Assembly (NCBI GenBank): GCA_000161775.1
Contig: GG704596.1
Span: forward strand, 2,561,017 to 2,625,016
DNA from: Ruegeria lacuscaerulensis ITI-1157
GTDB lineage: Bacteria > Pseudomonadota > Alphaproteobacteria > Rhodobacterales > Rhodobacteraceae
Length of the DNA stretch: 64,000 bases
Direction of reading: 5' to 3'
Positions within the stretch are counted from its first letter, which is position 1, and the number at the start of each line of letters is the position of its first letter. The translations under genes were made by a program, and so were the position numbers. The notes under the pieces are model-generated. The model did no database searches. It saw only the letters and a list, made by a program, of their open reading frames with translations, and had not been told where the DNA came from. This document shows positions 23,914-36,978 of the stretch, one piece after another.

Positions 23914-23988
23914 TGGCTCCGGCGGTAGGGATCGAACCTACGACCAATTGATTAACAGTCAACTGCTCTACCGCTGAGCTACGCCGGA
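23914..23988 (-). tRNA. tRNA-Asn (GTT), first copy
   Basis: Minus-strand cloverleaf of 75 nt with encoded CCA: acceptor TCCGGCG/CGCCGGA, discriminator G, anticodon loop CTGTTAA giving GTT. T arm GTAGGTTCGATCCCTAC is regular. It is identical in sequence to the copy at 24131-24205. Confidence 0.95.
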
Positions 23989-24130: not shown

Positions 24131-24205
24131 TGGCTCCGGCGGTAGGGATCGAACCTACGACCAATTGATTAACAGTCAACTGCTCTACCGCTGAGCTACG
24201 CCGGA
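24131..24205 (-). tRNA. tRNA-Asn (GTT), second copy
   Basis: Same 75-nt sequence as 23914-23988, including CCA. The two genes are 142 bp apart in direct orientation, and both have their own promoter, so this is a tandem duplication that included the upstream region. Confidence 0.95.
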
Positions 24206-26566: not shown

Positions 26567-26582
26567 TGGTAGGCCCGGAGGG
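26567..26582 (+). repeat. attL: 16-bp direct repeat of the tRNA(CAT) 3' end
   Basis: TGGTAGGCCCGGAGGG, identical to 36902-36917, where it forms the last 16 nt (with CCA) of the tRNA gene. It marks the left junction of the integrated element, 9 bp after the histidine kinase stop. Confidence 0.9.
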
Positions 26583-26615
26583 CAACAGGACATTGCAAGA
26601 TATCAAGGGGATGGG

Positions 26616-27002
26616 GTGGCGAACCCCGCGAAAATCCCCGTTGATACTCAAGAAAAAAACAAAAGCCTGACGAACCGTTCGGTAAAAGAAAGCGCCGGTG
26701 CAGCTGCAACTGCGACCGACGCACATTCTTCCAAAAACGGCTCCTACCGTGCAGCAAATAATACCCCAAAGTGGGGAGAGAATTCAACCCATAATCGCGC
26801 CGGGCGCATGGTTGAATATGCCCTTACATTGGGCACCGCGGATGCTTGGCACGGTGCGGCTTACGTCTTTGCAGCGCGACTGACGGAACAGGAAAGGGCA
26901 GCGTTGGCATATGCCGCGCTCAAGAGCCTGGACCAAGACAACGCTTACATGGTGGCCAGCGCTACCCTCTTTGGCGTCCTGGGCGGGGAGGTGGTGCAAT
27001 GA
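26616..27002 (+). CDS. Hypothetical protein, first gene of the element
   Basis: 128 aa from GTG 26616, preceded by AAGGGG; an in-frame ATG at 26532 lies inside the histidine kinase gene and left of attL, so it cannot belong to the original element. The first 55 residues are polar and low-complexity (many N, S, T, A). The second half, MVEYALTLGTADAWHGAAYVFAARLTEQERAALAYAALKSLDQ, looks helical and ordered. I do not recognise a family. Its stop overlaps the next ATG (ATGA at 26999-27002), so the two small genes are coupled. Confidence 0.6.
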   Translation: MANPAKIPVDTQEKNKSLTNRSVKESAGAAATATDAHSSKNGSYRAANNTPKWGENSTHNRAGRMVEYALTLGTADAWHGAAYVFAARLTEQERAALAYAALKSLDQDNAYMVASATLFGVLGGEVVQ

Positions 27003-27244
27003 GACGCGCCATGATGACGCTCAGGGACCACGAGGAAATCGACCGTCTGGTGTACCACATGCCGACGGTTGCGACCCATGCAACGAACAACTGGGCTGTG
27101 GGCTTTGCTCGGTCGATCCAGCGCCAGGCGCAGCGGCGCAATTGGACCCCTTCACAGAAACAACTGAACCTCATGCGTTCGCTGGTCTCTGACCTGTTCG
27201 CCCATGAAGGCAACGAGGGGGGCGACTTCGACGTGGTGGAATAA
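26999..27244 (+). CDS. Hypothetical small protein of the element
   Basis: 81 aa: MRRAMMTLRDHEEIDRLVYH, then 'MPTVATHATNNWAVGFARSIQRQ' and a tail ending GNEGGDFDVVE. It is basic in the middle and acidic at the end, and predicted helical. No family recognised. It is coupled to the preceding gene by ATGA. The position, the second gene in from attL and upstream of the packaging genes, suggests an early or accessory phage-type function; this is not supported by any motif. Confidence 0.55.
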   Translation: MRRAMMTLRDHEEIDRLVYHMPTVATHATNNWAVGFARSIQRQAQRRNWTPSQKQLNLMRSLVSDLFAHEGNEGGDFDVVE

Positions 27245-27754
27245 CTGCGTGCATTGCTGGTGCGTCTGAAACGGGCGCACCATCCCACAGGGTTTATGCG
27301 CGTCTTTCCCCACCACATCGCCGATGACGATGACCAAAGAGACACGCCACGGTTTGCCGCCTTCCCGTGCCAAAGGCGGACATGACGTCCCGGGGATATC
27401 ACCCGGCCCGGTCGGGAACCGGCTCCTACTAGGCCCGACCAGATGCGCGACTACAAACCCACCGGCCATTGCGGACCGGGGACTGCCGAGAGGCAGGGCA
27501 GGTGAGAAGCCTGCGGGCAGGCGGTTGGCCACCGATATCAGGCATCGCGCGGATACGGGACGTGGAGGCGTAGGGCCTGCCTTAGCCATCCTTGTGATGG
27601 GGGCAGGAGCGGGTGGCGGTAGTGCGTCTAATCGAAAGGCAGGCAACGAATTGACGAGCAACGACAACATCAATCTGGTCCCAATGCCCCGGCTTTTGGG
27701 AGAGGGGAGGCTCGCGGAGCGGGGTGTTGTTTCTACACACACGGGGGGCGCGGC
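27245..27754 (+). other. Hairpin-rich, poorly coding stretch upstream of the terminase gene
   Basis: 510 bp without a convincing gene. Hairpins: GGTGCG/CGCACC (27259-27264 with 27276-27281), GGTCGGG/CCCGACC (27410-27416 with 27434-27440), CCGGCC/GGaCCGG (27462-27479), CTGCC-GAGA-GGCAG (27483-27496) and GCCTG-CGGG-CAGGC (27510-27523). One open frame spans 27324-27758 (144 aa, ends in ATGA overlap with terL), but it is rich in Gly/Arg/Pro with rare codons. It occupies the usual place of a small-terminase gene and of a cos or pac site. It could be packaging sequence, a structured RNA, or a degenerate terS. Confidence 0.45.
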
Positions 27755-29269
27755 ATGAAAACGTCCACCAAGGTCAAGCGATTTGCCAAATCACTGTCGG
27801 TTCCTACTGGACGCCTTGCGGGCGAACAGATCAAGTTGGCACCGTATCAGAACAAGTTCATTGATGGAGCCTACGGACCGGGCATCAATGTTGGTGTGCT
27901 GTCTGTAGGACGCGGCAACGGAAAATCCACACTGTCGGCCATCCTAGCGCTTGGCGAGTTGGTCGGGGCTTGGTCGGACGCAAAAGAGCGGGAAATCCTG
28001 ATTGCGGCCAAGACCCAGCAACAGGCGCAGATCTGTTGGCACTATGTGGTGTCGTTGTCCAAGACATTACCCGAGGATGTGCAGGCGGCTATCACTATCC
28101 GCCGCCAACCCCGGTTTGAAATCCAGTTTGATGACGAGAACGGCCCCCATATCCTGCGCGCTATCTCTGCGGATGGTAAATCGGCGCTAGGTACAAGCCC
28201 GACGCTGGCGATCCTGGACGAACGCGGGCATTGGCCCTTGGCGCAGGGCGATGAATTGGAAGCCGCCTTGCTCACTGGCCTTTCCAAGCGTGACGGCAAG
28301 GCTCTGATTATCTCCACCAGCGCAAGCAACGACATGCACCCGTTTAGCCTTTGGTTGGATCGGGAGGCCCCCGGTGTGTATCGGCAGGAACACCGACCCG
28401 AACCGGGCTTGCCTGCTGATGACGTGGCCAGCCTTATCATTGCCAATCCTGGCACCAAGTACGGGATCGGCCCTTCTCTGAAACGCCTCAAGGATGATGC
28501 AGCCTTGGCCATTGAGCGGGGTGGATCTGCCTTGTCGCGGTTCCGCCTTCTGTCCCGAAACGAGCGGGTGCAGGAAGATAACAGGGACATCCTAATTAGC
28601 CTGGACGATTGGCTGAAATGCGAAACAGACGCATTGCCGCCAAAGTCTGGTCCCTGTGTCATTGGTCTTGATTTGGGCGGATCGGCTTCAATGAGTGCTG
28701 CCGCCTATTACTGGCCTGAAACAGGGCGTCTGGAATGCTTCGGCACCTTCCCCAGTAAACCTGACTTGGATGCGCGCGGGCAATCCGATGCGGTTGGCGA
28801 TCTTTACTGCCAGATGCACCAGCGGCGGGAACTAACCGTGATGGGCGACCGCACAGTGCCAATTGTCGATTGGCTGGATTCGGTTTTGCAGCGGGCAGTT
28901 GCCGAGAACGTGGCCTGCATCGTAGCCGACCGCTTCAAACAGGCAGAGGTTGGCGAGGCCCTGGATAAGGCCGGGAACCGTGCGCCGGTGGTCTGGCGGG
29001 GCATGGGGTTCAAAGATGGTTCCGAAGATGTGGAACGCCTTCGACGGTACGTTTTCGACGGCAAGGTGAAGTCGGCTGAAAGCTATCTTTTGCGACACGC
29101 CTTTGCCGAAACAGTCGTGATGATCGACCCGGCGGGCAACGCAAAACCTGCCAAGGGCCGAAGCATGGGCAGAATTGATGCTGCCTGTGCGGCGATGCTG
29201 GCCGTTGCGCAAGGGGCAAGAATGATGAGCCGACCGGTGAAGCAAGGGAGGGCACCGGTATGGGTGTGA
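27755..29269 (+). CDS. terL: Phage terminase large subunit
   Basis: 504 aa. DNA-packaging motor and nuclease. Walker A-like GRGNGKST (residues 52-59), Walker B LAILDE (151-156), then a coupling-type segment KALIISTSAS (182-191). The nuclease domain starts with VIGLDLGGSASMSA (D306), and further acidic positions are in VADRF and R-I-D-A-A-C-A near the C terminus. This is the HK97-like terminase_1 layout of normal length. The gene begins with an ATGA overlap to the preceding frame and overlaps the HNH gene by 10 bp. Full length with no internal stop, so probably functional. Confidence 0.92.
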   Translation: MKTSTKVKRFAKSLSVPTGRLAGEQIKLAPYQNKFIDGAYGPGINVGVLSVGRGNGKSTLSAILALGELVGAWSDAKEREILIAAKTQQQAQICWHYVVSLSKTLPEDVQAAITIRRQPRFEIQFDDENGPHILRAISADGKSALGTSPTLAILDERGHWPLAQGDELEAALLTGLSKRDGKALIISTSASNDMHPFSLWLDREAPGVYRQEHRPEPGLPADDVASLIIANPGTKYGIGPSLKRLKDDAALAIERGGSALSRFRLLSRNERVQEDNRDILISLDDWLKCETDALPPKSGPCVIGLDLGGSASMSAAAYYWPETGRLECFGTFPSKPDLDARGQSDAVGDLYCQMHQRRELTVMGDRTVPIVDWLDSVLQRAVAENVACIVADRFKQAEVGEALDKAGNRAPVVWRGMGFKDGSEDVERLRRYVFDGKVKSAESYLLRHAFAETVVMIDPAGNAKPAKGRSMGRIDAACAAMLAVAQGARMMSRPVKQGRAPVWV

Positions 29270-29577
29270 AGCGCTACGGGACTTGGGTTTACCGTGATCG
29301 TCGCTGGCCCGCTCTGCGGACGCTGGCAAAGCGGCGTGACGGCTGGAAGTGCGTCAAGTGCGGGGCGCGATATCGGCTTGAGGTCGATCACGTCGAGCCG
29401 GTGCGCGATGCGCCCGAAAAGGCTTTTGAACTGGACAATCTACAGACGCTTTGTGGCCGGTGCCACGGGGCCAAAACACGGCTGGAAGCTGGGCACCCCG
29501 AGCTTTCCCCCGAACGCCAGAAATGGCGCGATTTGCTGCGGGAAATGCAGCGCAAACCTAACGAGCATGGAGAATAG
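29260..29577 (+). CDS. HNH endonuclease, packaging-associated
   Basis: 105 aa. Zinc-type HNH: C-V-K-C at about residues 35-38, L-E-V-D-H-V-E-P (about 44-51) with the catalytic DH, then LDNLQTLCGRCHGAKTRLEAG (about 62-82). Such small HNH proteins next to terL are required for cos cleavage by several HK97-like phages, working with the terminase. The gene overlaps terL by 10 bp and ends 2 bp before the capsid gene. The presence suggests cos-type packaging; this inference is from the family. Confidence 0.88.
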   Translation: MGVKRYGTWVYRDRRWPALRTLAKRRDGWKCVKCGARYRLEVDHVEPVRDAPEKAFELDNLQTLCGRCHGAKTRLEAGHPELSPERQKWRDLLREMQRKPNEHGE

Positions 29578-29579
29578 AA

Positions 29580-30842
29580 ATGCTTACTTCGAAGCGAATT
29601 GAACTGCGACGCAGTGAAATCCGGCAAGCGCTGGCCGAGTTGGCAGCGAATGACAATCCGAGCGAGGAAGAAACCCGCAAGATGGCGGAACTCGATACGG
29701 AATACCGCAATGCGGAAACCCGCTATCGGGCGGCTCTGATTGCCGAGGATGAGGAACGCCGCGAAGCCGGTGCCGATCTGGAAACCCGTTCTGACCGGGA
29801 ATGGTCGGATCTGGTGGACGGGTTCGAAGTCCGTCAGATTGCAATGGCCCTGGATCACGGGCATCAGATCGACGGGCGCACGGCTGAGGTTGTTTCGGAA
29901 CTGCGCAACAGCGGCGCATATCAGGGCCTGCCGGTTCCCTGGGAGGCGTTGGAAATGCGCGCGGGTGAAACCGTCTCGACCGGAACGCCGGATCCGATTC
30001 AGACCCGCCCAATCATCGACCGGCTGTTTCCGAACTCGGTTGCGTCCCAGATGGGCGCACAGATGATCTCCATCGACCACGGCGAAATCGAATGGCCGGT
30101 GGTCACTCAGGGCGCGTCCGTTGGCTGGCAAACCAGCGAAACCGGCAGCGTTGGTGCGGCACAGGCTTTCGATACGACCGACAAGGCGTTGGCACCGGAT
30201 CAAACGCTTGGGGTGCAAATGAAGATCACCCGCAAGACGCTCAAGCAATCCGGGGCGGCTCTGGAACAGGCAGTGCGCCGGGATATCAACAGCGCAATGG
30301 GCGTTGAAATGGACCGCGTGGTGTTCCTGGGTTCCGGTGCATCCGGTGAACCCCTGGGCGTTGTTGCCGGGGCTTCGACCTATGGCATCACCGAAACAGC
30401 CATCGGGGCATCGGCAGATTGGGCGGCATTCCGGGCAGCGGTAACGCGGTTCATCACCGCAAACGCCGCCAGTGGTCCTGCTGCAGTTCGCGGTCTAGTG
30501 CGGCCTGAACTGTGGGACTTCATGGACGGCGCAATCTGGGATGCTGGCAGCGGCATCACTGAATGGGACCGACTGGCGGCAAAGCTGGGAAGCCTGACCA
30601 TGAGCCATAACGCACTGGCGGCACCCAGCGGTTCACCATTGGCCTGTTCGGCCCTGCTGACTACCAGCGCAGGCGGCGTTGCCCCGATCTTCGTGGGCAA
30701 GTGGGGCGCGGTTGACATGATCCGCGATCCTTACACCGACGCTGCATCTGGTGGCTTGCGCCTGACGGCTCTGGCAACCCTGGACGTGACAGTGGCGCGG
30801 CCTGCGCAATTGGAAGTCCTGACCGGCTTGGAGTTGGCGTAA
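29580..30842 (+). CDS. HK97-family major capsid protein
   Basis: 420 aa. Residues 1-75 form a charged coiled-coil (KRIELRRSEIRQALAELAAN... RYRAALIAEDEERRE), the scaffolding delta domain removed by the prohead protease. The mature shell part shows the HK97 fold hallmarks: 'FPNSVASQMGAQMISIDHGEIEWPVVT', then 'TTDKALAPDQTLGVQMKITRKTLKQSG', 'RRDINSAMGVEMDRVVFLGSGASGEPLGV' and a C-terminal 'VGKWGAVDMIRDPYT ... LRLTALATLDVTVARP'. Its TAA overlaps the protease start (TAATG). In canonical HK97-like modules the capsid follows portal and protease; here it comes first. Confidence 0.92.
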   Translation: MLTSKRIELRRSEIRQALAELAANDNPSEEETRKMAELDTEYRNAETRYRAALIAEDEERREAGADLETRSDREWSDLVDGFEVRQIAMALDHGHQIDGRTAEVVSELRNSGAYQGLPVPWEALEMRAGETVSTGTPDPIQTRPIIDRLFPNSVASQMGAQMISIDHGEIEWPVVTQGASVGWQTSETGSVGAAQAFDTTDKALAPDQTLGVQMKITRKTLKQSGAALEQAVRRDINSAMGVEMDRVVFLGSGASGEPLGVVAGASTYGITETAIGASADWAAFRAAVTRFITANAASGPAAVRGLVRPELWDFMDGAIWDAGSGITEWDRLAAKLGSLTMSHNALAAPSGSPLACSALLTTSAGGVAPIFVGKWGAVDMIRDPYTDAASGGLRLTALATLDVTVARPAQLEVLTGLELA

Positions 30843-31459
30843 TGCTCTGGGGCGGTCACGGAGGCGGGCTGGAACTCCGCAAGCGGGCATCCGGTGCAAT
30901 GGCGCTGCGTGGCCGCTTCCCCTATGGCAAGGCTGCCGTCCTTTCGGACGGTGGCCGCACTGGTAGGCCCAAGAAAGAGGTAATTGCACCTCGGGCCTTT
31001 GCCTATCGGATAGACCGACCGGAGGAAGATATTCACTTCTTGGTTGGGCATTCATACGACCGGCCTTTGGCATCGCGCGGGGCAGGCACTCTGATCTTCA
31101 ACGATACGGACGAAGCCCTGCTCTTTGAGGCGATTATCACCGAAGAAATGCAGGAGGTAAGCTATGTGCGAGACTTCCTGTCGGGTTTCGCGGCGGGTTT
31201 GATTATGGGCCTTTCCCCAGGCTTTCGAATCCCGCCGAAACGGGCAGTCGAGGAAGCCGAAACCATAGAGGATGAAGGATACGACCCCGAGAACGGTGCG
31301 CACAACGCCATCATCCGAACCGTTCATCACGCGCTGCTTTACGAAGTCTCCGCAGTCACACGACCTGCCTATGACGACGCGCAGATTGAAGAACGCAACT
31401 GGACCCCGCAACAGGTTTGGCCGGTGACGCCCAAACCGCAAATGCGTTGGAGGGCATAA
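30842..31459 (+). CDS. HK97-family prohead protease
   Basis: 205 aa. Serine protease that processes the capsid delta domain. Visible: LRGRFPYGKAAV at the start, E-V-I-A-P-R-A-F, LVGHSYDRPLAS with H70, GLSPGFRIP, and LLYEVSAVTRPAYDDA with S170. These form the His/Ser part of the herpesvirus-like triad. The length is usual. ATG 30842 overlaps the capsid stop. The C-terminal about 25 residues (ERNWTPQQVWPVTPKPQMRWRA) are Pro/Trp-rich and outside the conserved core. Confidence 0.88.
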   Translation: MLWGGHGGGLELRKRASGAMALRGRFPYGKAAVLSDGGRTGRPKKEVIAPRAFAYRIDRPEEDIHFLVGHSYDRPLASRGAGTLIFNDTDEALLFEAIITEEMQEVSYVRDFLSGFAAGLIMGLSPGFRIPPKRAVEEAETIEDEGYDPENGAHNAIIRTVHHALLYEVSAVTRPAYDDAQIEERNWTPQQVWPVTPKPQMRWRA

Positions 31460-31462
31460 CAA

Positions 31463-31990
31463 ATGGCAGAAATATTGAGGCAGATGGAAGATGTGCCGGG
31501 GATCTATCCCCCGCCACCAACAGGCGCAACTATCCCGCCGCACCCTGACGTGGTGTGGTCGCGGATCGAGAACTACATCGCGTATCGGTGGACGACCCGG
31601 CAAGTCAAATGGATCGTAGAAGGTCCGGGTGAGTGGGTGCCGCCGCTGTCACCCATCGACTTGGTGGTTTCCATTGACATTTGGAACGGCAGCAGTTGGC
31701 AGTCTACGACGCCGGATAGCGGATACTTGGGCGGCTATTGCCTGAATGAAGGCAAGTATCGCTTCGTCATGGACATCGGGAACGGCTCACCACCGGGGGC
31801 CGTGAACGAGGCTTATCTACGCTTGGCCAAATATATGGCCGAAACTGACAAGAAAGCCGGTGCGTCCAGCTACTCAGCCGAACTCGACATTCTCAAAGAA
31901 GCCTACACGCGGTCGCCAAGTTGGATGGCGAAAGCAATGCAAAACAGCGGTGCAGCAGACCTTCTGCGCCCATACCGGAGGGTCAGCTGA
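31463..31990 (+). CDS. Phage protein, candidate head-tail connector
   Basis: 175 aa. I recognise a pattern seen in GTA/phage neck genes rather than a named family: ENYIAYRWTTRQVKWIVEG (about 32-50), GEWVPPLSPI (53-62) and DIWNGSSWQS, then a helical C-terminal third 'AYLRLAKYMAETDKKAGASSYSAELDILKEAYTRSPSWMAKAMQNSG', resembling gp6-like connector helices. It lies between protease and portal and its TGA overlaps the portal ATG (TGATG at 31988-31992). The function as a head-completion or connector protein is inferred from place and pattern. Confidence 0.55.
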   Translation: MAEILRQMEDVPGIYPPPPTGATIPPHPDVVWSRIENYIAYRWTTRQVKWIVEGPGEWVPPLSPIDLVVSIDIWNGSSWQSTTPDSGYLGGYCLNEGKYRFVMDIGNGSPPGAVNEAYLRLAKYMAETDKKAGASSYSAELDILKEAYTRSPSWMAKAMQNSGAADLLRPYRRVS

Positions 31991-33051
31991 TGTTTGGTTG
32001 GTTCAAGCGACAAGATAAGGAAGAAACCCGGTCGGCAATGTCCGGCTTCACTGCGGAACTGATGGCGGCGCGCGAGTCCTATATCTCGGGCCGTCGAGGC
32101 ATAGCCGAATTGACTGGCACTGTTCAAAGCTGTGTATCGCTCTGGGAAAACGGTCTAAGGCTTGCGGATGTATCAGGCACCGATCTGCTGACCCGGCATT
32201 GCCTGGGGATGGTTGGGCGGTCACTGGCGCTGCGTGGGGAGGCGGTATTTCTGATCCGCGAAGAAGGGCTTGTTCCTTGCTCTGATTGGGATCTGAGAAC
32301 CGTTGACGGGGTGCCGCGCGCCTACCGGGTGTCGGTATCCGAGGCGGGCGGGGGCAAGACGCAGACGGCCTTGGCTGGCGAGGTTCTGCATTTTCGTATT
32401 GGTGTTGACCCGGTGACGCCCTGGGCAGGGTCAGCGCCGTTGAAGCGGGCGCAACTGACGGCAGGGGCGTTGCAGGCCATCGAAACGGCCTTGAGCGAGG
32501 TTTACGAGAATGCCCCGCTGGGTAGTCAGATAGTGCCTTTCCCTGAAACGCCGGACGTGGACATGAACGCGATTGGACGCGAGTTCAAGGGCGCGCGCGG
32601 CAAGCTGCTGCTTAGAGAATCCACCACGGTTACGGCAGCGGGCGGGCCAGCACCGCAAACCGACTGGAAGCCGCAGGACGTGACGCCTGACTTGTCCCGA
32701 GCGATGACGCGGGAAAGCCTGGACGCCATGCGTGGTAGCATCCTGATGGTCTTTGGCGTCCTTCCAGCAATGCTGGAGAAGGCGACGACCGGGCCGCTTG
32801 TCCGAGAGGGGCAAAGGCACCTGGCGCAATGGATGCTGCAACCCATCGTGGAAACGATGGCAGAGGAATTGACCGATAAACTGGGATCCGAAGTCACGCT
32901 CGATGTGATGCGGCCTCTGCAAGCCTTCGATGCAGGAGGGCGGGCGCGCGCCGCCGCAGGGGTAATTCAGGCACTGGCGATGGCCAAAGAGGCCGGTGTC
33001 GACCCGGCAACAGCAATGAAACTCGTTGATTGGGAGGCTGCAAATGGTTGA
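31990..33051 (+). CDS. Phage portal protein, HK97 type
   Basis: 353 aa from ATG 31990 (MFGWFKRQDKEETR). Portal ring subunit through which DNA is packaged. Family features: an N-terminal short acidic/basic arm, VQSCVSLWENGLRLADV, SLALRGEAVFLIREEG, AYRVSVSEAGGGK, GEVLHFRIGVDPVTPWAGSAPLKRAQ (core about 130-155) and a C-terminal wing and clip region VFGVLPAMLEKATTGPLVREGQRHLAQWMLQPIVE. Full length for a short-type portal. It overlaps the next ATG (33044) by 8 bp. That portal is followed directly by tape-measure remnants shows that the head-tail joining and tail genes are missing. Confidence 0.9.
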   Translation: MFGWFKRQDKEETRSAMSGFTAELMAARESYISGRRGIAELTGTVQSCVSLWENGLRLADVSGTDLLTRHCLGMVGRSLALRGEAVFLIREEGLVPCSDWDLRTVDGVPRAYRVSVSEAGGGKTQTALAGEVLHFRIGVDPVTPWAGSAPLKRAQLTAGALQAIETALSEVYENAPLGSQIVPFPETPDVDMNAIGREFKGARGKLLLRESTTVTAAGGPAPQTDWKPQDVTPDLSRAMTRESLDAMRGSILMVFGVLPAMLEKATTGPLVREGQRHLAQWMLQPIVETMAEELTDKLGSEVTLDVMRPLQAFDAGGRARAAAGVIQALAMAKEAGVDPATAMKLVDWEAANG

Positions 33052-33169
33052 TTTGGCAACACTGGCAATTCAGGTTGATACGACCGATCTGAAAGACGGG
33101 CAGGCCGACATGAAGGCGTTCGCATATGCGGACGCGGCTCCGTTGTCCCGAATGCAGCAGATATTCTGA
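33044..33169 (+). pseudogene. N-terminal stump of the tail tape-measure gene
   Basis: 41 codons: MVDLATLAIQVDTTDLKDGQ ADMKAFA, the usual opening of tape-measure proteins, then an unrelated tail (YADAAPLSRMQQIF) and a stop. The break in family similarity is near 33120. It and the next ORF are out of frame with each other and joined by TGATG at 33167-33171. It is the left edge of a large internal deletion. Confidence 0.6.
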
Positions 33170-33900
33170 TGATGGGCATGGGCGGGGAGGGTATTGTCTA
33201 CCCGACCAGAGGCGGCACAAGGTCTGGCGGCGGTGGCCGCACAGGTGTTCCAGATGGGCTGCGCGAGGCGCAGCGCCTATATAACAGCACTCGCACCGAG
33301 GCAGAGAAATACGCCGCAGAAGTCGAGCGCATCAACGAACTGCACCGCCTGTTCCCTGAGATCGTGACAGAGGAGGTCCGAGATCGGGCAATCGGGGCCA
33401 TAGCAGATGGGGTTAATTCGCTTTCCGGCGCAACAGACGCACTGAACCAGACATTTTCGGACCTGTTTCTGAGTATTGGCGAGGGATCGGAAGCCGCCCG
33501 GTGCGAACTCGCAGGATTACTGGATCAGATGGCACGACTGTTGCTGCAATCGGCTAATGCTGGCTTTGGTTCAGGCGGTTTCGCGGGCGCGTTGCTCGGC
33601 GGGCTGGGCATCCCTGAATTTGCCACCGGCACCAACTTCGCCCCCGGCGGGCCTGCTCTTGTCGGTGAGTGTGGACCGGAAATTGTGAATTTGTCACGCG
33701 GGTCTCAGGTCATCCCGAACCACAAGATCGGTCAGGGCGGCGCGGTTTCGCATGTATTGGTCGAGCTTAGCCCCGGTTTGGAGGCGCAGATTCTGCGAAA
33801 ATCAGCGGTCCAATCTGTTCAAATCACAAAGGCTGGCATGGCGCGGGTCGAGCAAAACACAGGTACGGCTTTGGACAATCACCTCGCTAGGAAAGGCTGA
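33169..33900 (+). pseudogene. C-terminal part of a tail tape-measure protein
   Basis: 243 aa from ATG 33169. GEGIVYPTRGGTRSGGGGRTG is a typical tape-measure linker; then a helical stretch with coiled-coil character (LREAQRLYNSTRTEAEKYAAEVERINELHRL) and the C-terminal signature ATGTNFAPGGPALVGECGPEIVNLSRGSQVIPNHKI. Normal tape-measure proteins of siphophages are several hundred to more than 1000 residues, so most of the gene is gone. In an intact phage this protein fixes tail length. The reading frame itself is open and could still be expressed through coupling with the stump; a new role cannot be excluded. Confidence 0.7.
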
Positions 33901-34056
33901 GCGTGTAAGGCAGGTTGCGCCAGGTTTGAGAGGGCCGAAGCAACCCCGTTAGTCGGTGAGTGGGTAAACCCCGACATTGCGCGGCCCCTGCTCGTATTCC
34001 TAGGGGCGCGGCGCAGATCCGTCACTTAGACGGAACCTCGGTGAAGGATCGAAAAA
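33901..34056. other. Intergenic region with several hairpins between convergent genes of the element
   Basis: Hairpins: GTCGG/CCGAC (33952-33956 with 33971-33975), GCCCCT/AGGGGC (33984-33989 with 34002-34007) and TCCGT/ACGGA (34018-34022 with 34030-34034). No open frame of note. It separates the structural module (plus strand) from the regulatory genes (minus strand) and could hold a terminator, but there is no T tract. Confidence 0.4.
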
Positions 34057-34335
34057 TTAAATGTCGCTCCAGGTTGTAACTTCGTATCCGTTTTCGATGT
34101 TGTTTGCCCATCCTTGAATTAAGTGCTCGGCGGTTTCAAGGTCATGCGCTGAGGTGTAGGAATTGGCGTACCAAAAGCCCGCAGCCCCATTTTCCTTAAA
34201 GGTGTGCGAGTACCGGATGTAGTGCCTGCCGTCTGGCGCTTCAAATACCACAGCTTGAAAATCTATAGTCGTTCCGCTTCGCTTGTTGGTGATGTCTGAT
34301 CGGTAGCGCGCGACTTCTTTGTACAACTCGGCCAT
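34057..34335 (-). CDS. Hypothetical protein in the regulatory part of the element
   Basis: 92 aa: MAELYKEVARYRSDITNKRS, then GTTIDFQAVVFEAPDGRHYI, 'HTFKENGAAGFWYANSYTSAHDLETAEHLIQGWANNIENGY'. It is a mixed alpha/beta small protein with many aromatics, with no recognised family. It lies 38 bp downstream of the XRE repressor and on the same strand, so it is likely co-transcribed under the same operator, where lysogenic accessory genes sit. GC is lower than in the structural genes. Confidence 0.55.
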   Translation of the reverse strand: MAELYKEVARYRSDITNKRSGTTIDFQAVVFEAPDGRHYIRYSHTFKENGAAGFWYANSYTSAHDLETAEHLIQGWANNIENGYEVTTWSDI

Positions 34336-34373
34336 TTATCTATCCTGTAAAAGATATTGATTCTATTTATATT

Positions 34374-34607
34374 CTAACCTTTCTTTAATCTAACTCCAGC
34401 ACCACCACCGTTCTCTGCAATGAATTCCACACCGGCGGCTTCCAAAGCCGCTTGGATGGCTTGAATAGCTTTATTTGCGGGATATGGGCTTCCAGAGCCT
34501 TCGGCCCGTTTTACGGTCATGCTGGACACACCCGCGGCGTCCGCAATTTGTGTCTGAGACAAGCCTAAGAGTGCCCGCGCTGCTCTGATCTGATCTGGTG
34601 TTACCAT
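34374..34607 (-). CDS. XRE-family repressor-like regulator of the element
   Basis: 77 aa from ATG 34607: MVTPDQIRAARALLGLSQTQIADAAGVSSMTVKRAE is a clear helix-turn-helix (scaffold and recognition helices at about residues 15-35), followed by a short helical tail AIQAIQAALEAAGVEFI and basic end RLKKG. Compact, with no LexA-like cleavage domain, so induction would not be by RecA-driven self-cleavage. The start is 11 bp from a divergent promoter built on two symmetrical operators (34618-34655). It is therefore likely the maintenance repressor or its Cro-like counterpart. Confidence 0.75.
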   Translation of the reverse strand: MVTPDQIRAARALLGLSQTQIADAAGVSSMTVKRAEGSGSPYPANKAIQAIQAALEAAGVEFIAENGGGAGVRLKKG

Positions 34608-34615
34608 TTTTACTC

Positions 34616-34657
34616 TTGTTCTAAAGAGAACATTCCGGTATGTTCTCTTTAGAACAA
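34616..34657. promoter_or_regulatory. Symmetrical double operator with two overlapping face-to-face promoters
   Basis: A perfect inverted repeat with 16-bp arms (34618-34633 and 34640-34655) and a 6-bp centre. Each arm contains its own dyad GTTCT-N4-AGAAC: 34618-34631 and 34642-34655, 24 bp apart. Promoter pattern TTGTTC-N17-TATGTT reads rightward (34616-34621, 34639-34644); TTGTTC-N17-AATGTT reads leftward (34657-34652, 34634-34629). Each -35 box abuts or overlaps one dyad, so occupation would decide between the XRE operon and the rightward operon. Confidence 0.75.
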
Positions 34658-34680
34658 TACCACAATGGGAGATCAAAGCA

Positions 34681-34926
34681 ATGACCAATGAACGCGCCTG
34701 CGCGAACAGCCACGAATTGTTCGAATACATCCAATGCTGCAAAGACATGGCCACAGATATTTCAAGCCTGATCGAGTCTGCGGCAATCCTGGACAATGTC
34801 GGAACGTATGAAGGCGGCGTTACTACGTTGCTAAAGGTGTCCGGTGAATTGGCGATGCGGTTGGAGGAGAAGCTGGACAGCGTGAACCTGCCGAAGATTT
34901 CAGGGCGTAAGACAGAAAGTTATTGA
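34681..34926 (+). CDS. Hypothetical protein at the Cro position
   Basis: 81 aa: MTNERACANSHELFEYIQCC, 'KDMATDISSLIESAAILDNVGTYEGG', 'VSGELAMRLEEKLDSVNLPK'. Mostly helical and acidic; no helix-turn-helix visible and no family recognised. It is the first gene of the rightward transcript from the double operator, with a predicted transcription start near 34651. In phages this spot usually holds cro or an early regulator; a role in the switch is only positional inference. Confidence 0.5.
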   Translation: MTNERACANSHELFEYIQCCKDMATDISSLIESAAILDNVGTYEGGVTTLLKVSGELAMRLEEKLDSVNLPKISGRKTESY

Positions 34927-34976
34927 CGCGGGATAAATGGACGGTATTCTGTGACTAATAATCACAGGATGGCCAA

Positions 34977-35615
34977 ATGACAATCGGACGCGGAGACATA
35001 GAAAAGTACGCAGGGATTAGCGCAAATGTAGCGACTACCTGGATCCGTGATGGCGTCTTGTTGCCTGTCCCGGGTCCGGGCCGAAACAAGAAGTTCGAAG
35101 ATTACGAAGCAATTGTCGCGCGCATTATCTCGGTTCCACATGCCCATCTTCGGCCGGCGAATTCTATTCTGGCTGGGATTGCTGGCTATGTCCGCGAACT
35201 CGTTAGTGTTGGCAACAAATTTGGATGCAAGAGCGCTTTAGCAGGTGAGCGCAAAGCTAAATTGGAGCGCGCAGCGATCATTAAGAATGGCAAGGACACA
35301 AAACTCCATGAAGTTGCCGACAAATGGGCGAATGAACTGGGAGTCTCAGATATTCCGAACCCAACTATGACAATGGACGAGGTGCGCGAACTTGAGAACT
35401 GGGTTGGCCTCCGCAAGTGCATTGAGGGCGGAAAACAAGGTTGGATGACAATCGCAGCAACCAACGACAAAGGTTGGTACGTCGGATTTACCACCAGAAA
35501 ACCGACGCAAGAAGATGACTTAAGCTTTATTACCGTCGTCAAACCATCCTATCCATCAACCGTTTTTTTAGTACTCGACCTGCTCGAGATTTTCTCGGAG
35601 GCAAGCGAGAATTGA
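34977..35615 (+). CDS. MerR-type helix-turn-helix protein of the element
   Basis: 212 aa. Residues 1-50 look like a MerR/AlpA-type winged helix: 'IGRGDIEKYAGISANVATTWIRDGVLLPVPGPGRNKKFEDYEAIVARI', with the 'I-x-x-Y-A-G-I-S-x-x-x-x-x-x-W' recognition part. Residues 50-212 form a second domain that I do not recognise, with LSFITVVKPSYPSTVFLVLDLLEIF at the end. AlpA-like proteins switch on excision in satellites and prophages, and this gene sits two genes upstream of integrase, so a directionality or activator role is plausible. The base composition is AT-rich relative to the chromosome. Its stop overlaps the next start (TTGA). Confidence 0.55.
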   Translation: MTIGRGDIEKYAGISANVATTWIRDGVLLPVPGPGRNKKFEDYEAIVARIISVPHAHLRPANSILAGIAGYVRELVSVGNKFGCKSALAGERKAKLERAAIIKNGKDTKLHEVADKWANELGVSDIPNPTMTMDEVRELENWVGLRKCIEGGKQGWMTIAATNDKGWYVGFTTRKPTQEDDLSFITVVKPSYPSTVFLVLDLLEIFSEASEN

Positions 35616-35773
35616 CCGCCCCAACCCCAATCAAACAAGCTGACCTGACCCGCTACGCCAAGGCCATGAAAAAGGCTGGGGTTGAGCAATGGCAAGTCAT
35701 TGTTGAGCCGGGGCGGCACAAGATCATCGTTGGCAAAACTGAGACTGACAACCCGGAGAGCGATTGGGATTGA
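35612..35773 (+). CDS. 53-aa small ORF preceding integrase
   Basis: From TTG 35612 to TGA 35773; protein LTAPTPIKQADLTRYAKAMK then KAGVEQWQVIVEPGRHKIIVG and NPESDWD. It overlaps the upstream stop (TTGA) and the integrase ATG (TGATG at 35771-35775), so translation is coupled on both sides. The fold would be one helix plus a beta hairpin. Small genes of this type commonly precede integrases in alphaproteobacterial elements; it might be an excisionase-like helper, which is inference. Confidence 0.6.
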   Translation: MTAPTPIKQADLTRYAKAMKKAGVEQWQVIVEPGRHKIIVGKTETDNPESDWD

Positions 35774-36894
35774 TGCGCAAACGCAGCGACAAATATCCGG
35801 GTGCAAAGCCCTACTTTGACCGTCACGGCAACCGCCGTTGGCGGTATCGCTGCAAGGGTTTCTCTGCCGAACTCGGCACCGACTACGGTTCCGACGAATT
35901 CGAGCGGCGCTATCAGGCCGCGCTGAATCACCAAAAGGAAAAGCAGGCCAATGGGGCAGGGCGTTCAGTGCCGGGCACCTTTGACGATCTGGTGGCGCGT
36001 TTCTACCAGTTGAAATTCCCTGAGTTGGAGGAAATCACCAAGCGGGATTACCGAGCGGTTATCGAACCTCTACGCCGTCAGCACGGCCACAAACGGGTTG
36101 CCGGTATGCGGCAGCGTCACGTCCTGGAAATCAAAGCGCAGCTGTCATCGACGCCTGCGCAGGCCAACAAGACGTTGAAACGCCTCAGCCAGTTGATGAA
36201 GCTGGCGGTGCAGTTGGAATGGCGTTCCGACAACCCTGTGTCCGGTGTCGAGTTCTACCAGACCGGCAGCAGCGGTTATCACACCTGGACCGAAGATGAG
36301 ATCGCCCGTTTCTATGCCAAGCATGAGCGTGGATCTTTGGCCTATCTGGCAATGACGTTGATGCTCTACACCGGAGCATCCCGAAAGGATGCGGTTGCTC
36401 TGGGTCGCGGCAATATCCGGGGCGGGCGGCTTATTTATCGCCGAAGCAAGACGCGAAAGAACCCCAATGGGATCGAGGTCAATATCCCGGTGCATCCCAC
36501 CTTGGCTGACGCGCTGGAAACCGTGCCAGAAGGTGCCTTCACCTTCCTTGAGACCAACCGCAAGCAAGCCCGTTCACCCAATGGATTGGGCAACGATATG
36601 CGTGAGTGGTGTGACAAAGCCGGGTTGCCGATGTGTTCATCGCATGGGTTGCGGAAAGCGATTTGCCGTAGAATTGCCGAAGCGGGTGGTACGCCATTCG
36701 AGATTATGTCTGTCAGCGGCCACATTACCTTGGCGATGGCGCAGCACTACTGCGAAGCGTTCGGGCGAAAAAATCTTGCAGATTCCGCCGTCCACCGTCT
36801 GCCTCATGGGCCGAACGGTGAACAAAAGTTGACGAACCTAGACGGCGGGTTCGTCAATCATAGCCGTAACCAACTGAAAGGAAACGGGAAATGA
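35773..36894 (+). CDS. int: Tyrosine-type site-specific integrase
   Basis: 373 aa from ATG 35773 (MRKRSDKYPGAKPYF). N-terminal arm-type part, then a SAM-like core-binding domain (residues about 65-160: 'FDDLVARFYQL...KRDYRAVIEPLRRQ'), then the catalytic domain with R204 (YTGASRKDAVALG), H291 and R294 (SSHGLRKA), H317 (SVSGHITLAM) and nucleophile Y326 (QHYCEAF). All five expected catalytic positions are present, so it should be active. It ends 7 bp before attR within the tRNA gene, the usual arrangement for integrases using tRNA 3' ends. It is the reason the repeats are called att sites. Confidence 0.93.
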   Translation: MRKRSDKYPGAKPYFDRHGNRRWRYRCKGFSAELGTDYGSDEFERRYQAALNHQKEKQANGAGRSVPGTFDDLVARFYQLKFPELEEITKRDYRAVIEPLRRQHGHKRVAGMRQRHVLEIKAQLSSTPAQANKTLKRLSQLMKLAVQLEWRSDNPVSGVEFYQTGSSGYHTWTEDEIARFYAKHERGSLAYLAMTLMLYTGASRKDAVALGRGNIRGGRLIYRRSKTRKNPNGIEVNIPVHPTLADALETVPEGAFTFLETNRKQARSPNGLGNDMREWCDKAGLPMCSSHGLRKAICRRIAEAGGTPFEIMSVSGHITLAMAQHYCEAFGRKNLADSAVHRLPHGPNGEQKLTNLDGGFVNHSRNQLKGNGK

Positions 36895-36901
36895 GTACCT
36901 T

Positions 36902-36917
36902 TGGTAGGCCCGGAGGG
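36902..36917 (+). repeat. attR: 16-bp repeat within the tRNA 3' end
   Basis: TGGTAGGCCCGGAGGG, identical to 26567-26582. On the tRNA strand it reads CCCTCCGGGCCTACCA, i.e. part of the T stem, the 3' acceptor strand, discriminator A and CCA. Confidence 0.9.
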
Positions 36918-36978
36918 ACTCGAACCCCCAACCAAAGCGTTATGAGCGCTCTGCTCTAACCAATTGAGCTACAGGCCC
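36902..36978 (-). tRNA. tRNA with CAT anticodon (Met or Ile2)
   Basis: 77-nt minus-strand cloverleaf including CCA: acceptor GGGCCTG/CGGGCCT, D arm GTAGCTCAATTGGTTAGAGC, anticodon stem AGCG-CTCATAA-CGCT giving CAT, T arm with GGTTCGAGTCC. It lacks the initiator features (three GC pairs in the anticodon stem), so it is elongator Met or the lysidine-modified Ile2; I cannot decide. Its 3' end serves as the attachment site and stays intact after integration. Confidence 0.93.

Follow-up and report, generated by a model that had tools for sequence, protein, structure and literature searches.

What kind of element carries phage head and packaging genes, its own integrase and attachment (att) repeats, and no tail? 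The question is raised by a 10.3-kb insertion in the genome of Ruegeria lacuscaerulensis ITI-1157, located in a stretch of 64,000 nucleotides that was analysed as a whole and is called the window here (assembly GCA_000161775.1, contig GG704596.1, positions 2,561,017 to 2,625,016 of the forward strand). A first, sequence-only reading of this DNA had proposed a satellite similar to the capsid-forming phage-inducible chromosomal islands (cf-PICIs), with decay of a tailed prophage as the main alternative. Our analysis indicates that the element is very probably a capsid-forming phage satellite. This assignment is based on an intact head and packaging gene set, a predicted neck-adaptor fold, an exact insertion, numerous relatives of uniform size and low ratios of non-synonymous to synonymous substitutions (dN/dS). 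The element would function like a cf-PICI; the two are compared by published description, and no descent from the known cf-PICIs is claimed.

The first point to settle is whether the element is a defined unit. At a congener locus (L427), the kinase flank joins the tRNA-Met/purM flank over one copy of the 16-bp att core TGGTAGGCCCGGAGGG, which constitutes an empty site. The boundaries of the element are therefore exact and the insert, integrated in tRNA-Met-CAT, measures 10,335 bp. The att repeats first noticed at both ends are thus confirmed. In ten other genomes of the genus, the tRNA-Met/purM side was matched in all and the integrase side in none. Congeners do not harbour full-length tailed prophages at this site: it is empty.

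Within these boundaries (Table 1), the terminase large subunit (TerL), the HNH endonuclease, the major capsid protein, the prohead protease, the portal and the integrase are all above the curated Pfam cut-offs and their frames are open, in line with the full-length head and packaging set and intact integrase initially described. Start-stop coupling had been attributed to all head genes; codon overlap is real for terL/HNH, capsid/protease and connector/portal, the pairs reported. The connector candidate has no family match in the family-library scans, and a sequence search against solved structures gave nothing useful for this protein or for the portal. Its AlphaFold model (pLDDT 88.7, from a 22-row alignment) matches neck adaptors, the best match being the neck of a gene transfer agent (GTA) over 141 residues at 3.4 Å (Z 9.9), which supports its prediction as a head-tail connector of neck-adaptor fold. 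A second connector (head-closure) protein was not found in the window copy; the clusters clo10, clo13 and clo22 are present in relatives. The absence of tail, lysis and replication genes, also part of the first reading, holds among the open reading frames (ORFs) scanned, with the exception of two tape-measure pieces.

Is this tail-less arrangement peculiar to one genome? When 296 Rhodobacteraceae genomes, nearly all from different genera, were searched with the capsid, about 30 gave matches of 55–80% identity. In a class-wide sample, a close match (64%) was found in a single further genome outside this family, so the elements are concentrated in Rhodobacteraceae. A genome scan confirmed 224 relatives, the best 80 of which include Ruegeria pomeroyi, Rhodobacter capsulatus, Phaeobacter, Roseovarius and Mesorhizobium, as well as Chelativorans, Sphingobium, Citromicrobium, Altererythrobacter and Ponticaulis. 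At least 507 relatives were confirmed in IMG/VR. The contigs among the matches listed are of 4–17 kb, apart from a 23.7-kb contig in which an integrase lies to the left of the same head block. Two distant relatives with about 30% capsid identity (L107 and L108) are also att-bounded elements, of 10.4 kb. Members are present in laboratory model species, namely Rhodobacter capsulatus DSM 1710 (L163) and Ruegeria pomeroyi SZCCDBG043 (L121). Another (L112) lies outside Alphaproteobacteria on a contig labelled as an Oceanospirillaceae metagenome-assembled genome (MAG), probably because of a binning error.

The length of these elements is uniform. The median for 70 att-bounded loci, which include some elements fetched twice, is 10,337 bp (5–95% range 9.65–11.2 kb), and this uniformity suggests a capsid-size limit. 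The longest locus, of 12.1 kb, contains a long ORF resembling, by eye, an IS66-type transposase. Counted as distinct elements there are 58, i.e. the window element and 57 relatives from other Alphaproteobacteria. With genes called by our own codon-based script rather than a standard gene finder, TerL and capsid were identified in all 58, a portal in 57, an integrase in 55 and a protease in 54. The order is terL, capsid, protease, (adaptor), portal. Elements differ in which of two adaptor types and of several head-closure types they have, and in whether the integrase is at the left or right end. The known genes leave a median of 3.7 kb per element, hence there is no room for a tail module; none was seen in the 57 relatives, which share the head block. 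The same tail-less content thus recurs in related genomes, at att sites in eleven other tRNA species (Cys, Asn, Glu, Phe, Arg, Ser, Lys, Thr, Leu, Gln and Ala).

Judging from sequence comparisons, the head genes are kept under purifying selection across the family. Between close pairs, the median dN/dS is 0.055 for terL, 0.166 for the capsid, 0.078 for the protease and 0.087 for the portal gene. Internal stops are few: the frame is free of them in 197 of 200 terL, all 225 near-full-length capsid, 212 of 215 protease and 197 of 207 portal sequences. The family is also distant from known phages. At E 0.001 the portal has no match in 50,697 phage records, and the best phage matches reach about 27% identity for the capsid and 28% for TerL. 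A supported branch (99/91) in the tree built from capsids has the phages on one side; branches are long and finer placement is unsafe, and the T2_G070 row is misframed, its position being meaningless. The nearest solved capsid is 8gta. No full-length tailed prophage was found among the close relatives, which are tail-less elements of about 10 kb.

These data bear on the possibility that the element is a decayed tailed prophage that has lost its entire tail module. Tape-measure fragments after the portal, together with the lack of tail, lysis and replication genes, would fit such a history. However, the 57 att-bounded relatives, of near-equal length and in many tRNA sites, are tail-less as well, with dN/dS of 0.05–0.17 in their head genes. 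Given this recurrence, the selection and the distant phage matches, decay of a single prophage does not explain the element, and we consider it highly improbable. Its chief argument was the tape-measure stump, which had been taken as a sign of descent from a tailed prophage. The two pieces are mutually out of frame and occur in only one of 235 loci, L031, which is the IMG/VR copy of the window element. They are located behind the portal gene and ahead of a conserved RNA; in other elements this RNA comes about 30–90 nt after the portal stop. Because of this uniqueness and this location, the pieces are read from the sequence as an acquired insert, and not as an ancestral stump. They would not be needed. 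The window fragment is 58% identical to the end of a 612-aa tape-measure gene in a second satellite of the same genome, where this gene adjoins a related XRE gene. This second satellite is a likely source type of the insert.

Exchange between elements is not limited to this insert. The window capsid is 98% identical to that of a metagenome element (L041:6746-8005; dN 0.008, dS 0.080) versus 43–72% for the other head genes, which points to recent recombination or module exchange between such elements.

The conserved RNA is present directly after the portal gene in about half of the satellites. It consists of three main stems and a two-pair pseudoknot, with 93.1% of cells paired in 53 aligned sequences and 131 double-sided changes versus at most 26 with slid partners. 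The covariance model matched in 34 of the att-type loci searched (window included), in 39 of 68 relatives from IMG/VR and in a single satellite of type 2 (L325), many of the matches, that of the window among them, belonging to the training set. It gave no match in the other prophage-like regions used as controls. No Rfam family reached its gathering cut-off, with only matches at chance-level E-values. This RNA could possibly play a role in late-gene control, in forming mRNA ends or in packaging.

A second conserved feature, the motif TGGTCCCAATGCCCC, precedes terL. Its invariant core 11-mer TGGTCCCAATG is found upstream of terL in 148 loci, mostly 77–131 nt before the terL match, i.e. about 80 nt before the terL start after allowing for the start of each protein match. 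The positions flanking this core are mostly 40–60% conserved, and the 13-mer TGGTCCCAATGCC has one copy in the host genome. As an HNH gene and TerL are encoded alongside, the simplest reading is that the motif would be a cos site. Frame 0 is often open around it, and a coding role of the region keeps some probability. We treated 27245–27754 as mainly non-coding; its fold is not unusual (z -1.08). The ORF orf144 (27324–27758) was rejected as a gene for the terminase small subunit (TerS), having no family match and not being picked by the codon model.

If the element is a capsid-forming satellite, infection or induction by a helper phage would lift repression and the integrase would excise the element. 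TerL and the HNH protein would cut near the conserved motif before terL and pack the unit of about 10.3 kb into the element's own capsid, and the neck adaptor would join this small head to helper-made tails. Replication would probably be provided by the host or the helper, because the RepA-like ATPase of other members is missing from the window copy and from many relatives.

Several observations weigh against the satellite assignment. No TerS was recognised among the ORFs scanned against family libraries. TerS diverges fast, and the HNH protein does match an HNH-bearing TerS family (phrog_4581, E 5e-13), more weakly than it matches HNH families. These scans covered the window ORFs and a few relatives, and the absence of tail genes in the relatives rests on size and ORF content. 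In the host genome there is no HK97-type portal besides that of the element and a GTA-like one, and no PF10145 tape-measure protein, so no resident helper was identified. Finally, the window copy may be inactive, given its tape-measure insert and the lack of a replication gene.

This last point leads to a version of the satellite explanation in which the family is a satellite lineage and the window copy is dead, through the insert and the loss of its replication gene. The broken-frame insert between portal and RNA is indeed unique, and the AAA replication gene present in 19 of the 58 elements is missing. Nevertheless, the core genes are all open and have near relatives in sequence, many other members also lack the ATPase, the capsid is very close to that of L041, at the dN and dS given above, and the total size is at the family median. 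A dead copy is possible, although we would place it on the improbable side.

Tails could also come from a host GTA instead of a phage. The top structural match of the adaptor is a GTA neck, the host genome has a GTA-like portal, and GTAs are frequent in the alphaproteobacterial orders from which the hosts come. The likeness of the adaptor may, however, reflect a shared fold only. Furthermore, among four hosts searched for a GTA portal, two of them incomplete MAGs, no match was found in Mesorhizobium, Citromicrobium and Ponticaulis, and that in Altererythrobacter was very weak. Dependence on GTA tails as a general rule was rejected on the basis of the three hosts with no match, and a satellite using such tails is very unlikely. 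A domesticated, GTA-like host function would account for tail-less capsid genes under selection. This is exceedingly unlikely, since the integrase, the att sites in many tRNAs, the presence in only about 30 of 296 family genomes and the empty congener sites indicate a mobile rather than a fixed element.

How does this probable capsid-forming satellite compare with known systems? The cf-PICIs encode capsid, protease, portal, connectors, TerL, TerS and HNH, and borrow only tails (PMC10690885). Like cf-PICIs such as EcCIEDL933, the window element is integrated and tail-less and has capsid, protease, portal, connector, TerL and HNH, TerS being the only defining component not recognised. An AlpA-like gene is a further likeness, found in some relatives. 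The element differs by the order terL-HNH-capsid-protease-adaptor-portal, by the conserved RNA after the portal and by its size, about 10.3 kb versus an average of 14 kb for cf-PICIs (PMC10803314). The main cf-PICI hosts listed in that paper do not include Alphaproteobacteria, the hosts of the present family. Capsid-forming satellites have been described mainly from Enterobacteriaceae and Firmicutes (PMC10803314), and our literature search, confined to open PMC papers, found no satellites reported in Rhodobacteraceae. The Streptomyces satellites MulchRoom and MiniFlayer, likened here by description, have capsid and packaging genes, are helper-dependent and have no obvious replicase, as is the case for the window copy; in contrast to it, they are described as satellites of virulent actinophages with terminal repeats (PMC10690885). 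PICMI and classical PICIs are, as the window element probably is, small satellites integrated at specific chromosomal sites, but PICMI are without identifiable packaging or capsid genes (PMC10803314) and classical PICIs use helper capsids (PMC10690885). Roseophage-type siphophages (RcCronus, CRP-811; PDB 8gta) show distant HK97-type capsid similarity, but at 27% identity or less; they are tailed, of about 30–36 kb, and have no close terminase or portal match to the element. RcGTA shares the neck adaptor fold (Z 9.9), and it and the window family have overlapping host orders. However, RcGTA belongs to the host as a gene cluster and has a tail of its own, whereas the window element is mobile, with integrase and att sites, tail-less and patchy in distribution.

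Taken further, the family could be a class of capsid-forming satellites that evolved separately in Alphaproteobacteria and whose genome size is tightly fixed at about 10.3 kb. The post-portal RNA and the terL motif would be working parts of packaging or late-gene control, and a second satellite class, which supplies no more than a capsid and a small terminase of its own, would have the RNA in common with it. For this broader proposal the chances seem to us evenly balanced.

If the satellite assignment is true, roughly a tenth of evenly sampled Rhodobacteraceae genomes carry a compact capsid-forming satellite, and Hyphomicrobiales, Sphingomonadales and Hyphomonadaceae also carry such satellites. 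Public viral catalogues would list them as short "viral" contigs, and prophage counts for sea and soil would have to be read differently. Gene transfer by means of borrowed tails would then also take place in a clade of global importance. The members in Rhodobacter capsulatus DSM 1710 and in a Ruegeria pomeroyi strain make the family open to testing.

Table 1. Features of the element and its integration site (window coordinates)
Feature	Position	Strand	Basis or remark
attL core TGGTAGGCCCGGAGGG, 16 bp	26567..26582	.	direct repeat with attR; single copy at the L427 empty site
Small conserved gene (o156 cluster, C-terminal part)	26808..27002	+	cluster common to 23/58 att-bounded elements
Small conserved gene (o76 cluster)	27011..27244	+	cluster common to 19/58 elements
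Conserved DNA motif TGGTCCCAATGCCCC, candidate cos (packaging) site	27676..27690	+	core 11-mer before terL in relatives
Terminase large subunit (TerL), 504 aa	27755..29269	+	PF03354, PF20441, phrog_9; dN/dS median 0.055 in relatives
HNH endonuclease, 105 aa	29260..29577	+	PF01844
HK97-type major capsid protein, 420 aa	29580..30842	+	PF05065, phrog_617
Prohead protease (S78), 205 aa	30842..31459	+	PF04586
Predicted head-tail connector (neck adaptor), 175 aa	31463..31990	+	predicted structure matches neck adaptors of GTA and phages, top Z 9.9
Portal protein, 353 aa	31990..33051	+	PF04860; start codon overlaps connector stop codon
Tape-measure N-terminal fragment, 41 aa	33044..33169	+	N-terminus assigned by resemblance only
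Tape-measure C-terminal fragment, 243 aa	33169..33900	+	phrog_8892, E 8e-14
Structured RNA with pseudoknot, 3' of head operon	33905..34038	+	covariation; covariance-model match 109.4 bits
Accessory ORF, 92 aa	34057..34335	-	codon-model ORF; weak PHROG matches only
XRE-family repressor	34374..34607	-	PF01381 at its cut-off
Operator-like 42-bp near-perfect palindrome	34616..34657	.	inverted repeat, arms 95% complementary; between divergent XRE and orf81
Accessory ORF orf81, 81 aa	34681..34926	+	divergent from XRE gene; cluster in two other elements
212-aa protein, MerR/AlpA-like N-terminus (by eye)	34977..35615	+	position of relatives' r206 genes; no Pfam match
Small conserved gene (o60 cluster)	35612..35773	+	cluster in 12 elements, upstream of int
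Tyrosine integrase, 373 aa	35773..36894	+	PF00589, E 3.7e-10
attR core TGGTAGGCCCGGAGGG, 16 bp	36902..36917	.	direct repeat; inside 3' end of tRNA-Met
tRNA-Met(CAT)	36902..36978	-	contains attR core

The regulatory switch suspected from the beginning is seen to the right of the head operon, where the XRE gene and orf81 diverge around the 42-bp palindrome, which is likely an operator. An AlpA and/or Rep regulatory-replication module is a feature of cf-PICIs, though the definition in PMC10690885 does not include it. No Pfam AlpA or Rep match was obtained in the window copy; in the wider family, an AlpA-like gene is present in 14 of the 58 elements and the AAA ATPase (RepA-like) in the 19 mentioned above.

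The second satellite of the genome (L288:834-10165, corresponding to G000:C1, about 2025834-2035165) spans 9,281 bp, with 51-bp att repeats in tRNA-Thr. It encodes an integrase, a replication initiator, a capsid protein, a small terminase and the full 612-aa tape-measure protein; terL, portal and protease genes were not found in it. Three relatives of this type (L323, L324 and L325) have their own capsid and a small terminase-like gene, with no terL or portal found. In L325, 57-bp att repeats in tRNA-Thr enclose 8,959 bp with integrase, AlpA-like and replication genes and with a member of the same RNA family. L323 and L324 are located beside a tRNA-Asn gene, and their neighbours are the metallo-hydrolase and kinase genes also found flanking the window element. 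The window itself has two identical tRNA-Asn genes (23914-23988 and 24131-24205) that are 217 bp apart. This site holds satellites in other genomes, and the tandem is possibly the trace of an earlier insertion.

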